Source: Thiomicrospira pelophila DSM 1534
GTDB taxonomy: Bacteria > Pseudomonadota > Gammaproteobacteria > Thiomicrospirales > Thiomicrospiraceae
Direction: 5' to 3'
Assembly (NCBI RefSeq): GCF_000711195.1
Contig: NZ_JOMR01000001.1
Coordinates: 1,860,001 to 1,924,000, forward strand
DNA: 64,000 nt
Under the pieces are notes generated by a model, which saw nothing but the letters and a program-made list of their open reading frames with translations, searched no databases and had not been told where the DNA came from. The translations under genes were made by a program, and so were the position numbers. The stretch's first letter is position 1; every line of letters begins with the position of its first letter. This document shows positions 17,887 through 21,783 of this stretch, in pieces.

Positions 17887-19197
17887 TTAAATCTCTTCAC
17901 CTCGACCTACACCGAAATAACGAAAACCTTGTTGCTTCATAATATCTGGATCAAAAATGTTACGACCATCAAAAATAATAGGCTGACGCATTTTTTGTTT
18001 CATCACGACATAATCTGGGTTCCAGAAAAGCTTCCATTCCGTCAAGATAATCAAAGCATCCACGCCTTCAATCGCTTGGTACATGCTATCGACCATTTCA
18101 ATCGTCTGAACGCCCTGCCAACTGTTAGAAAAGTCCTGCATCGCCTTTGGATCATAGGCTTTAATCTGCGCACCCTGGGCCGCAAACGCCTCTAACGCCT
18201 TAAGGCTAGGGGCATTTTCAACCGTGGAGGTGTTGGGTTTAAATGACAAGCCCCAAACGCCAATTTTAAGACCACGTAAATCCGTATCAAAAAAACGCCA
18301 CGCCTTGCGAAATAACACTTCTTTTTGAATTTCGTTGTTGGATAAAACGGTACGAAGCAAATCGGCATCATAGCCTTTAGCTTGCAAGTCCCCAACCAAG
18401 GCGCGCACATCCGCCGCAAAGCTCGGCCCGCCAAAACCACAGCCCGGATATAAATAACTGAAGCCAATTCGGCTATCTGAGCCCAAGCCTTGGCGCACTT
18501 CTTCAAAATCGATATCAAAATGTTCGGCATTGTTCGCTAATTCATTGACTAAACTAATGCGAGTGGCTAGCAAGGCATTCACCGCATATTTCGTATATTC
18601 GGCCGCACGAGTCGACATCACTTTTATCTGGTCGGTCATACGATTAAACGGGCGCAATAAATCCCGCATTACTTTAATACTATCTGCTTGCCGACAACCT
18701 AATACAATTCGATCTGGTCGCATAAAGTTATCCAATGCGGAACCTTCACTAATAAAGTCAGGCATCGCCACCACGGCTACGTTTATATCTAAGTTACGCC
18801 TAGCAAAAGCGCCTAGTAACGATTGCTCAAACCTGTCCGCCGTACCCACTGGAAAGGTACTTTGGTTAACCACCAGTAAATCTCGCTTAATGGTTTCGCC
18901 CATTAATTCAATTAAAGCTTCGGCTCGATCCAAACGCCACGAAGGCGTTGATAAAATAAGAACATCGGCGTGCGCGAGCCCAACCTGCCAGTCAGCTTCA
19001 AACTGCAAACGGCCTTCTTTATACTGCTGAGCCAGCAATGCATCCAGGCCAGGTTCTTCGCGAGGCAACCGCCCGGCCACCAAATCCTCAACTTTAACCT
19101 GCCCAACCGGTAACGCCATCACGTCATTTCCTGCATGGGCCAATGCGCCTGCTGTTACTAAACCGGTAAGTTCACATCCGAATACTGAAATTTTCAT
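17887..19197 (-). CDS. UDP-glucose/GDP-mannose dehydrogenase family protein lacking the catalytic Cys
   Basis: A 436-residue homologue of UDP-glucose 6-dehydrogenase. The N-terminal Rossmann domain reads FGCELTGLVTAGALAHAGNDV, so the second Gly of GxGxxG is Glu. The central domain has KYAVNALLATRISLVNELAN with the conserved Lys. The C-terminal UDP-binding domain is complete (GVWGLSFKPNTSTVENAPSL). The usual active-site GG-x-C-F/L-P-K-D reads GGPSFAAD: Ser replaces Cys, and Ala replaces the catalytic Lys. The normal two-step oxidation to UDP-glucuronate needs that Cys. The protein is therefore a divergent or inactive member, perhaps with another role. It overlaps pgi by 4 nt in a sugar-nucleotide cluster with galU. 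Confidence 0.8.
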   Translation of the reverse strand: MKISVFGCELTGLVTAGALAHAGNDVMALPVGQVKVEDLVAGRLPREEPGLDALLAQQYKEGRLQFEADWQVGLAHADVLILSTPSWRLDRAEALIELMGETIKRDLLVVNQSTFPVGTADRFEQSLLGAFARRNLDINVAVVAMPDFISEGSALDNFMRPDRIVLGCRQADSIKVMRDLLRPFNRMTDQIKVMSTRAAEYTKYAVNALLATRISLVNELANNAEHFDIDFEEVRQGLGSDSRIGFSYLYPGCGFGGPSFAADVRALVGDLQAKGYDADLLRTVLSNNEIQKEVLFRKAWRFFDTDLRGLKIGVWGLSFKPNTSTVENAPSLKALEAFAAQGAQIKAYDPKAMQDFSNSWQGVQTIEMVDSMYQAIEGVDALIILTEWKLFWNPDYVVMKQKMRQPIIFDGRNIFDPDIMKQQGFRYFGVGRGEEI

Positions 19198-20834
19198 GAT
19201 AACTTCACTCTGTTTAATAGCTGCACGGTTGACCCATCAAATCGTCCGGCTTGCCCCGAATCAAGCATGGCTTGGTAGGTATCCTTGGCAATTAACTTGC
19301 CTAACTCAACGCCCCACTGGTCAAAAGGATTAATCTCCCAGATGACCGACTCGACAAAGGTTTTATGCTCATAAAGTGCCACCAACATTCCCAAGGTTTT
19401 GGCTGAAATAGATTTCAGTAATAAAGTATTGGATGGTTGATTGCCAGCATAGTGCTTAAATGGAGAATCAAAACTGGATTTTAAATTTTCTGGTATCGCG
19501 GCATCACCCAACATTAATACACGTGATTGCGCAAAGCAATTCGCCAAAGCCAAGCGATGTTGATATCGTAATGATTCACTTCTATGCGTATCTGAGTAAC
19601 GATCAAAGTCATCGCGTTCAACAGGGGCAATAAAATCCGACATAACCGCTTGCGTTCCCTGATGTAATAACTGATAAAATGCATGCTGCGCGTTAGGGCC
19701 AACCTCCCCCCATAATATCGGACAAGTTTTATAACTCACTGGTTCGCCTTGTCGATTTACCGACTTACCATTACTTTCCATTACCAACTGTTCTAAATAC
19801 GATGGCAGATATCTAAGCCGAGCATCATAGGGCAAAACCGCCTTGGCTTGAATCCCTAAAAAATTGATATGCCAGACATCAATCAATCCCATCACCACTG
19901 GAATATTCTGCTCCATCGGTGCTTGAGCAAAATGCTGATCCATCAAGCTCGCGCCTTCCAACATCTCATAAAAGCCTTCCATGCCGACTTTTAACGCGAT
20001 AGGAAACCCAATGCTTGACCAAAGCGAATAACGCCCTCCCACCCAATCCCAAAACAACAATTGGTTTTCCGGCGGTATGCCCCACGTCGTCATCATATAT
20101 GGCTTGGTTGACACGCCAATAAAGTGCTGAGCCATAATGGTCTTAATACTTGGGACACGCTCTTCAAGCCAGTCTTTCGCGGTTTCAGCATTTGATAGAG
20201 TATCGATTGTAGTAAAAGATTTTGAAGCCAAAACAAACAGAGTTGTTTCCTGATTCAAGCTCTTCAGCAGGTTTGAAGTTTGGGTACCATCAATGGATGA
20301 GATAAAGTGCAAGTTAATCGGCGAGGTCTGGGTTTGTAAAGCCTGCGTGACCATTAATGGCCCTAGATCTGAACCGCCGACACCAATATTAACCACATCC
20401 GTAATAGGTTTACCGCTGTAACCGCGCCAATGACCTGAGCGAACCTTGTTGACGATTGCCGCCATCTTCGAAAACTGGCTTTTCACATCCGACTGTACAC
20501 TAGCCGCAAACCCTTTTATCGGCGAATCAGAACCAGCCCTAAGCGCGCTGTGAAGGGCTGGTCGATCTTCAGTATCATTTACCTTCTCGCCACTTAACAA
20601 CCGATCAATCCAATCCGGCAGCGCTTGCTCTGTAGCTAACTCGAATAAGGCGCTAAGAATTTCATCATCGACACGATTTTTTGAATAGTCTAAAAACAAT
20701 TCATCCAGCTCAATAGCATAACGCTGCGCTCGGTTCGGGTCTTGTTCAAACCAGGTTTTCAAGTGCTTATCAGCCGCACCGTTTTTTGCTAATTTATCTA
20801 GCTTTTGCCATGCCTTAGACTGATCCACCGCCAT
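19194..20834 (-). CDS. pgi: Glucose-6-phosphate isomerase
   Basis: A 546-residue enzyme that interconverts glucose-6-phosphate and fructose-6-phosphate. Signatures are NIGVGGSDLGPLMV, ASKSFTTIDTLSNA, GGRYSLWSSIGFPIAL and PFDQWGVELGKLIA. Length matches E. coli Pgi (549). In this cluster it links gluconeogenic sugar phosphates to UDP-glucose made by GalU 24 nt upstream. Confidence 0.97.
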   Translation of the reverse strand: MAVDQSKAWQKLDKLAKNGAADKHLKTWFEQDPNRAQRYAIELDELFLDYSKNRVDDEILSALFELATEQALPDWIDRLLSGEKVNDTEDRPALHSALRAGSDSPIKGFAASVQSDVKSQFSKMAAIVNKVRSGHWRGYSGKPITDVVNIGVGGSDLGPLMVTQALQTQTSPINLHFISSIDGTQTSNLLKSLNQETTLFVLASKSFTTIDTLSNAETAKDWLEERVPSIKTIMAQHFIGVSTKPYMMTTWGIPPENQLLFWDWVGGRYSLWSSIGFPIALKVGMEGFYEMLEGASLMDQHFAQAPMEQNIPVVMGLIDVWHINFLGIQAKAVLPYDARLRYLPSYLEQLVMESNGKSVNRQGEPVSYKTCPILWGEVGPNAQHAFYQLLHQGTQAVMSDFIAPVERDDFDRYSDTHRSESLRYQHRLALANCFAQSRVLMLGDAAIPENLKSSFDSPFKHYAGNQPSNTLLLKSISAKTLGMLVALYEHKTFVESVIWEINPFDQWGVELGKLIAKDTYQAMLDSGQAGRFDGSTVQLLNRVKLS

Positions 20835-20858: not shown

Positions 20859-21758
20859 CTATTTCGATTTTTTCGGCTTTAACTCAGTTAAATCTAATGA
20901 CGACAAGTAAGTATGAAACGATGATCCTAACTGCGGATCACGCAACGCATATTCAACATTAGCCTCTAGAAAGCCTTGCTTATCACCACAATCGTAACTT
21001 TTGCCACCTTTAAACTCGAAGCCGAACATCACCTGTTCATTCAACAAATCAGCCATTGCATCAGTCAACTGAATTTCACCACCCTTACCAGGTTTAGTGC
21101 TTTTAAGTAACTGCATCAAGCGAGGTGTGAAAATATAGCGCCCAACTACCGACAAGTTCGATGGTGCTTCTTCCGGTGTAGGCTTTTCCACTAAATCAAC
21201 AATACGCAAATCGGCATCTTTTACAGCCGCGATACCATATTTATCCACCTGATCACTGGGCACTTGCTCCAATGCCACTACACTGGTGTGGACCTGCTTA
21301 TAATATTCAGCCATTTGCGCCAAGCAACCTTGCTGCGGGTGATACATCAGTACGTCCGGCAGTAAAACCGCAAAGGGCTCATCTGGTGCCACAACATGCG
21401 ATGCGCACAGAATAGCGTGCCCTAACCCCAAAGCTTCTGGCTGGCGAATACTAATTAAATTAACTCCAGGAGGCGTAATGTCAGCGATCGCATCCAACCG
21501 ATCATGCTTAGCCGACTCCAAAAGCTTACTTTCGAGCTCATAGTGAGTATCAAAGTGGTTCTCAATCGCATTTTTACTTGAATGAGTAATCAAAATAATG
21601 TCGGTTATTCCGGCTTGCGCAGCTTCATGCACAATATACTGAATCAAAGGCTTATCCACGACCGTTAACATTTCCTTTGGAATCGCCTTGGTGGCCGGTA
21701 AAAAACGCGTACCCAATCCGGCCACAGGAATAATAGCCTTTGTTAATTTTCTATACAT
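20859..21758 (-). CDS. galU: UTP-glucose-1-phosphate uridylyltransferase
   Basis: About 299 residues from ATG 21756-21758 (MYRKLTKAIIP); a GTG one codon upstream is also possible. The nucleotidyltransferase signature is VAGLGTRFLPATKAIPKEML, and the middle has KGGEIQLTDAMADLL and the active-site Lys region EFKGGKSYDCGDKQGF. It makes UDP-glucose for polysaccharide, LPS core and glycogen-like pathways. It lies upstream of pgi and the dehydrogenase homologue. Confidence 0.96.
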   Translation of the reverse strand: MYRKLTKAIIPVAGLGTRFLPATKAIPKEMLTVVDKPLIQYIVHEAAQAGITDIILITHSSKNAIENHFDTHYELESKLLESAKHDRLDAIADITPPGVNLISIRQPEALGLGHAILCASHVVAPDEPFAVLLPDVLMYHPQQGCLAQMAEYYKQVHTSVVALEQVPSDQVDKYGIAAVKDADLRIVDLVEKPTPEEAPSNLSVVGRYIFTPRLMQLLKSTKPGKGGEIQLTDAMADLLNEQVMFGFEFKGGKSYDCGDKQGFLEANVEYALRDPQLGSSFHTYLSSLDLTELKPKKSK

Positions 21759-21783
21759 CACTTAATTTTTATCCTATTCAATA

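Follow-up and report, generated by a model that had tools for sequence, protein, structure and literature searches.

The gene analyzed here raises the question of what remains of a UDP-sugar dehydrogenase when its catalytic Cys and the residues that hold its cofactor are missing. It lies in a stretch of 64,000 nucleotides of the Thiomicrospira pelophila DSM 1534 genome (hereafter the window), and its product is called psUGD. The open reading frame reads GCGFGGPSFAAD and MKISVFGCELTGL, and the protein carries the N-terminal, central and C-terminal domains PF03721, PF00984 and PF03720 in this order, each above its gathering score, and reaches 307 bits against TIGR03026 (cut-off 189.8), so that by descent it belongs to the NDP-sugar dehydrogenase superfamily. 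The best matches in the PDB were 2y0e, 2y0d and 2y0c, with E values of 6e-103 (2y0e) to 8e-103 over residues 1-432; we take these chains to be BceC, which fits the title of a paper on BceC. To judge from these alignments, psUGD is a homologue of the BceC-type UDP-glucose 6-dehydrogenases (UGDH, EC 1.1.1.22), with which it has in common the three-domain architecture and the residues of the UDP-sugar site. It differs from them in that the catalytic Cys, an intact GxGxxG, the Asp of the NAD ribose and the Arg of the NAD pyrophosphate are absent, and in that the TPPxEDGSAD loop is shorter. An AlphaFold2 model built from five rows was of poor quality, with a mean pLDDT of 60 and residues 186-306 below 50. 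The features of the locus are collected in Table 1.

Table 1. Features of the psUGD locus, in coordinates of the window.
Feature	Position	Strand	Remark
psUGD, UDP-glucose dehydrogenase homologue, Cys-less and predicted to be NAD-less	17887..19197	-	436 aa, ATG start
pgi, glucose-6-phosphate isomerase	19194..20834	-	TGA overlaps the psUGD ATG (ATGA, 19194-19197)
galU, presumed UTP-glucose-1-phosphate uridylyltransferase	20859..21761	-	nucleotidyl transferase domain
Residue 9, Glu replacing the second Gly of GxGxxG (GCELTG)	19171..19173	-	alignment
Residue 30, Pro replacing the NAD adenosine-ribose Asp (Asp29 of S. pyogenes UGDH)	19108..19110	-	alignment; role from excerpts of PMC4794789
Residues 83-88 (STPSWR), shortened loop replacing TPPxEDGSAD (NAD side)	18934..18951	-	alignment
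Stretch from K203 to N207, whose Lys and Asn of the substrate site are conserved (in S. pyogenes UGDH, Lys204 and Asn208)	18577..18591	-	
R243, conserved Arg (Arg244 in UGDH)	18469..18471	-	role from excerpts of PMC4794789
GGPSFAAD, residues 256-263	18409..18432	-	catalytic motif
Ser259, replacing the catalytic Cys	18421-18423	-	
K320, conserved	18238..18240	-	the same Lys holds the diphosphate of UDP-glucose in UGDH
Residue 327, Glu replacing the NAD-pyrophosphate Arg (Arg327 of S. pyogenes UGDH)	18217..18219	-	
R412 of DGRN, conserved	17962..17964	-	

The roles of the residues concerned can be read from excerpts of a study of S. pyogenes UGDH (PMC4794789). On the cofactor side, Asp29 holds the adenosine ribose of NAD, Arg327 pairs with its pyrophosphate and Lys263 lies 2.9 Å from its nicotinamide ribose. 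On the sugar side, Arg244 reaches the 2-hydroxyl of the glucose bound in the other subunit, Gly257 contacts the UMP ribose and Lys320 the diphosphate, Lys204, Asn208 and Asp264 serve the chemistry at C6, and Asn219 and Asn287 hold the neighbouring loop. The same excerpts give Gly9 of GxGxxG and Cys260 as invariant across 229 sequences and Asp29 and Arg327 as 99% conserved, and mention single uncharacterised sequences without Tyr10, Asp29 or Arg327 (PMC4794789). In the window protein, GxGxxG, the catalytic Cys, Asp29 and Arg327, which mark an active enzyme, are all missing, and Lys204, Asn208, Arg244, Gly257, Lys320 and the general base Asp264 are all present. The loop that replaces TPPxEDGSAD is seven columns shorter; its Thr was not scored as lost because this depends on the placement of the gap, and members of the window's genus retain T-P. 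The initial annotation had described a motif without Cys and a Glu at the second Gly of GxGxxG, and both readings were confirmed. It had also described the catalytic Lys as missing, which proved to be a misassignment: the lost Lys of GGxCFPKD is the NAD contact (Lys263), and the catalytic Lys204 is kept as K203 within EYTKYAVN. Its statement that the domain structure is otherwise intact applies to the Pfam domains but not to the NAD site, in which Asp29 has become Pro30, the loop is short and Arg327 has become Glu.

These sites were read in 90 psUGD members, 58 from the window's order and 32 from other families, and compared with 42 canonical rows, which keep every listed site. Cys260 was found in none of the 90 members and in 42/42 canonical rows. 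Its position is occupied in the order by Ser (23), Asn (17), His (10), Tyr (5), Asp (2) or Gly (1), and over the whole clade by S, N, H, Y, D, G or T, by which Ser as an alternative nucleophile was ruled out. The clade of active enzymes with Ser in place of Cys envisaged by the initial annotation exists in part: there is a clade, but the position is variable, the cofactor site is lost as well and no sign of activity was found. A sequence error at the motif was also ruled out, since all 58 homologues, from the 57 genomes of the order that carry the gene, have a residue other than Cys there. The second Gly of GxGxxG was kept by a single member (G980 of family f277, GQGLGA) and by 42/42 canonical rows, and the replacements (E, T, N, D or S) form no new common motif. 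Asp29 was found in 0/88 members with a letter at this position, and Arg327 in 4/90 (three from f102, one from f197). On the other hand, Lys204, Asn219, Arg244, Gly257, Gly258, Asn287 and Lys320, all at or beside the UDP-sugar site, were present in 90/90. Arg401, counted here among the site residues, was present in 89/89, the frame of genome G423 stopping short of it. The pocket is not wholly fixed, since Glu145 was kept in 75 of the 90 members and Glu141 in 26, being mostly replaced by Asp. One batch of rows had been selected by the presence of GRN, KP and G[FY]GG, a choice that biases the counts towards some of these sites; G980 and G423, which this filter dropped, were read without it and are included in the 90. 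In G1025 and G1044 the N-termini were cut by the start rule, and visual inspection of the full frames gave Thr as the ninth residue. Columns with an invariance of 95% or more over 40 canonical rows were also compared by domain: 9/59 of them in the NAD domain, 25/54 in the central domain and 16/31 in the UDP domain remained conserved in 90% or more of 35 pseudo rows. Ten residues were conserved in the pseudo rows and not in the canonical ones, with W300 and Q341 in all 35, and could delimit a new site or surface.

In a search of 57 relatives, orthologues were found in 22 further genomes of the family with 61-94% identity, and diverged ones with 41-45%. A profile search detected psUGD in 57/62 genomes of the order, in 58 copies, all of which were read. 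Samples of 369 genomes of the class and 398 of the phylum, plus the orders and families around new carriers, gave members, among the matches listed, in at least six other families (f102, f154, f171, f192, f197 and f277). The gene was present in 3/6 genomes of f102 and in 8/41 of f154 (two partial), and in at least 113 of the 121 sampled genomes of f171 the best match had E <= 1e-88, the motif having been read in 15 of them and the remainder assigned by score alone. No psUGD relative was confirmed in viral contigs. Several copies are peculiar. Genome G022 has two (L049 and L050), each accompanied in its stretch by a separate pgi and galU, which reflects two strains or a duplication. The copy of G058 (L142) is unusually diverged: it has Gly where the Cys would be, lacks Asp264 and Glu145 and sits on a long branch. 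In G423 (f171; L246:1498-2616(+)) the frame stops after 373 codons, before DGRN, owing to a broken gene or an assembly error. A UGDH homologue of a Jorgensenbacteria metagenome-assembled genome (L037:5001-6245(+)), 28% identical to psUGD and with a galU-like open reading frame in the same stretch, is also without Cys (GFSGTVKRD) and without GxGxxG (GSWHLAE); it is possibly an independent loss, because Arg327 is kept.

In a tree computed without the diagnostic columns, 35 pseudo and 41 canonical rows parted at one branch with 100/100 support (this 76-row tree took 29 of the 58 rows of the order). A wider tree, also without these columns, separated 48 pseudo from 39 canonical rows at one branch, again with 100/100; near-copies, duplicates, two long-branch rows (G058 and G070x) and one short canonical row had been left out of these 87 rows. 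When six outgroup rows were added, 19 pseudo rows formed one clade (100/100) beside 15 canonical rows, the exact root being unsure as the outgroup did not fall on one side of a branch. A single origin of the clade is the simplest reading of these trees, with the reservations that branches are long and that G980 stands outside the trees. The clade is under purifying selection. In the closest pair of the order (G000 and G002), with a dS of 1.0-1.6, near saturation, and most other pairs of that comparison giving no dS estimate, psUGD and pgi both had a dN/dS of 0.030, compared with 0.020 in galU and 0.021 in leuA, and ten pairs within f154 and f171 gave 0.018-0.127 (partly with NG86 in place of YN00).

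A second, normal ugd, whose possible presence the initial annotation had raised, was found elsewhere in the window's genome (GGYCLPKD), in a surface-polysaccharide-like cluster, and a third match to PF03721, below the cut-off, at C1:2092792. A canonical BceC-type copy besides psUGD was also found in three further genomes of the order (G014, G018 and G024), so that these four genomes can produce UDP-glucuronate independently of psUGD.

In the window, galU, pgi and psUGD follow one another on the minus strand, which bears out the neighbours named by the initial annotation; the name galU follows that annotation and what is generally known of the family. The arrangement is widely kept, as psUGD adjoins pgi or galU in 88/89 loci (57/58 in the order, window included, and 31/31 elsewhere). 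Of the 57 further loci of the order, 56 have pgi as the immediate neighbour in the same orientation and 52 have galU within 2.6 kb upstream. Among the five that do not, the contig ended in three cases (G012, G018 and G058), locus G022b had galU 3.3 kb off and an open reading frame separating psUGD and pgi, and in G060 no galU frame was found in the stretch taken. Among the 31 loci of other families galU was seen in 27, and the remaining four stretches end inside pgi; the order is galU-psUGD-pgi in f192, and in f171 galU is directly upstream and pgi is absent. At canonical UGDH loci pgi was adjacent in 1/17 and galU in 0/17, two of these loci having less than 2.1 kb upstream and one a GalU-like match of 59 bits, below threshold. 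A PGM/PMM gene was found on the same strand in 21/57 loci of the order, so that the genes around psUGD cover the steps by which fructose 6-phosphate is converted to UDP-glucose. Of the five order genomes that have no psUGD, four likewise gave no match to pgi (completeness 79-94%, gaps being possible); in the fifth, G009, a contig end truncates pgi. In three f102 genomes with pgi, neither psUGD nor galU was found within about 4 kb. In G069, pgi and psUGD form one open frame of 932 aa (L136:1447-4245(+)), with one base fewer than in the relative G061; this is either a real fusion or an artefact of assembly, and as it concerns one fragmented genome, it counts as weak evidence.

We lean towards the reading that psUGD is a pseudoenzyme that binds UDP-glucose without oxidizing it, senses its level and regulates its synthesis, because the pocket is frozen, the NAD residues have been erased without a common replacement, the C6 residues are drifting in other families, and galU and pgi are adjacent. 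A BceC-type dehydrogenase would have become psUGD by loss of its cofactor half, so that NAD is probably no longer held and the thioester would not be formed, and the UDP-glucose pocket would have been retained, together with the Arg which, in the UGDH dimer, is contributed by the opposite subunit. From the conservation of the sites and the order of the genes we infer that psUGD is a dimer that binds UDP-glucose and does not bind NAD, and that it would respond to the product of GalU by acting back on the enzymes of the pathway, with GalU as the first candidate partner and Pgi as the second. Several observations count against this reading. G980 keeps the second Gly, four members keep Arg327, and Glu141 and Glu145 are not fixed; pgi occurs without psUGD in f102, and 33/41 genomes of the f154 order are without a close member. 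The proximity of galU and pgi might stem from nothing more than shared regulation, and with Lys204, Asn208 and Asp264 all present in the window's protein, a non-redox chemistry on a UDP-sugar is possible.

The main rivals of the sensor reading are a scaffold and a non-redox enzyme. If psUGD were purely structural, for instance the scaffold of a complex of GalU, Pgi and phosphoglucomutase in which the pocket is kept for folding only, then the gene order with pgi and galU, the PGM/PMM gene at part of the loci and the single frame in G069 would be accounted for. We regard this as rather unlikely, for folding does not obviously call for the ligand contacts that are kept, among them the inter-subunit Arg and the Lys at the diphosphate, and the single frame amounts to one base in one fragmented genome. 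An enzyme that uses the kept Lys, Asn and Asp for hydrolysis, transfer or isomerisation, for example, of UDP-glucose or a related UDP-sugar would explain why Lys204 is invariant and why, within the order, Asn208 is kept in 58/58 members and Asp264 in 57/58 (the exception is G058). Outside the order, however, where every loss of Asn208 occurs, Asn208 is kept in 20/32 and Asp264 in 21/32 (78/90 overall for each), and the losses (12/32 and 11/32) extend to f154, whose pairs have dN/dS values of 0.055-0.079; moreover, the variable Cys position offers no new conserved nucleophile. Such an activity thus appears unlikely. It is very improbable that psUGD is still an oxidoreductase, which performs the first oxidation only or acts with another sugar or cofactor. 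Pfam still recognizes its N-terminal domain, the TIGR03026 score is well above the cut-off and one member keeps GxG, but the second Gly, the ribose Asp and mostly the pyrophosphate Arg are gone with no common replacement at these positions. Of the options in the initial annotation, inactivity as a dehydrogenase is therefore well supported by the alignments, and a first oxidation only or dehydrogenation of another sugar is disfavoured, as features of the NAD site are lost besides the Cys. Finally, a decaying gene or a sequence error is hardly credible in spite of the several catalytic residues lost and the interrupted frame of G423, and for the family as a whole it is ruled out by the 57/62 carriers, the 61-94% identity in 22 further genomes and the dN/dS of 0.03.

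The nearest functional analogy to psUGD would be GalF of Escherichia coli. Excerpts of PMC4643126 describe it as a near-inactive paralogue of GalU, with a Vmax four orders of magnitude below that of GalU, and relate that others have proposed it as a regulatory subunit of GalU. Both would be degenerate enzymes of UDP-glucose metabolism with a proposed influence on the level of UDP-glucose, but GalF descends from the pyrophosphorylase itself, whereas psUGD descends from a dehydrogenase that uses the product of the pyrophosphorylase. UgtP and OpgH are also sensors that read UDP-glucose, being glucosyltransferases that act on cell division; the mode proposed for psUGD, in which bound UDP-glucose alters how the sensor interacts with its partner, would be alike, and the folds are unrelated. 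In searches of the open-access literature we came across no account of a UGDH clade that is Cys-less or NAD-less; a passage of PMC13296553 on hyaluronate in Halomonas has no bearing on psUGD. The UGDH fold is well known; a fixed and widely kept loss of its cofactor half is, as far as we have seen, apparently undescribed.

Tentatively, and with less assurance than for the sensor reading itself, psUGD may represent a new family in which dedicated UDP-glucose sensors, dehydrogenases stripped of their cofactor half, control the synthesis of UDP-glucose in several lineages of Gammaproteobacteria, and which an automatic rule yet names nucleotide sugar dehydrogenases. If this is true, a clade whose member in the window passes TIGR03026 makes no UDP-glucuronate, and pathway reconstruction would be misled. 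The clade would also provide a clean natural case of an enzyme that has shed its cofactor half, kept its substrate half and become a sensor, with testable partners, GalU and Pgi, encoded alongside it.
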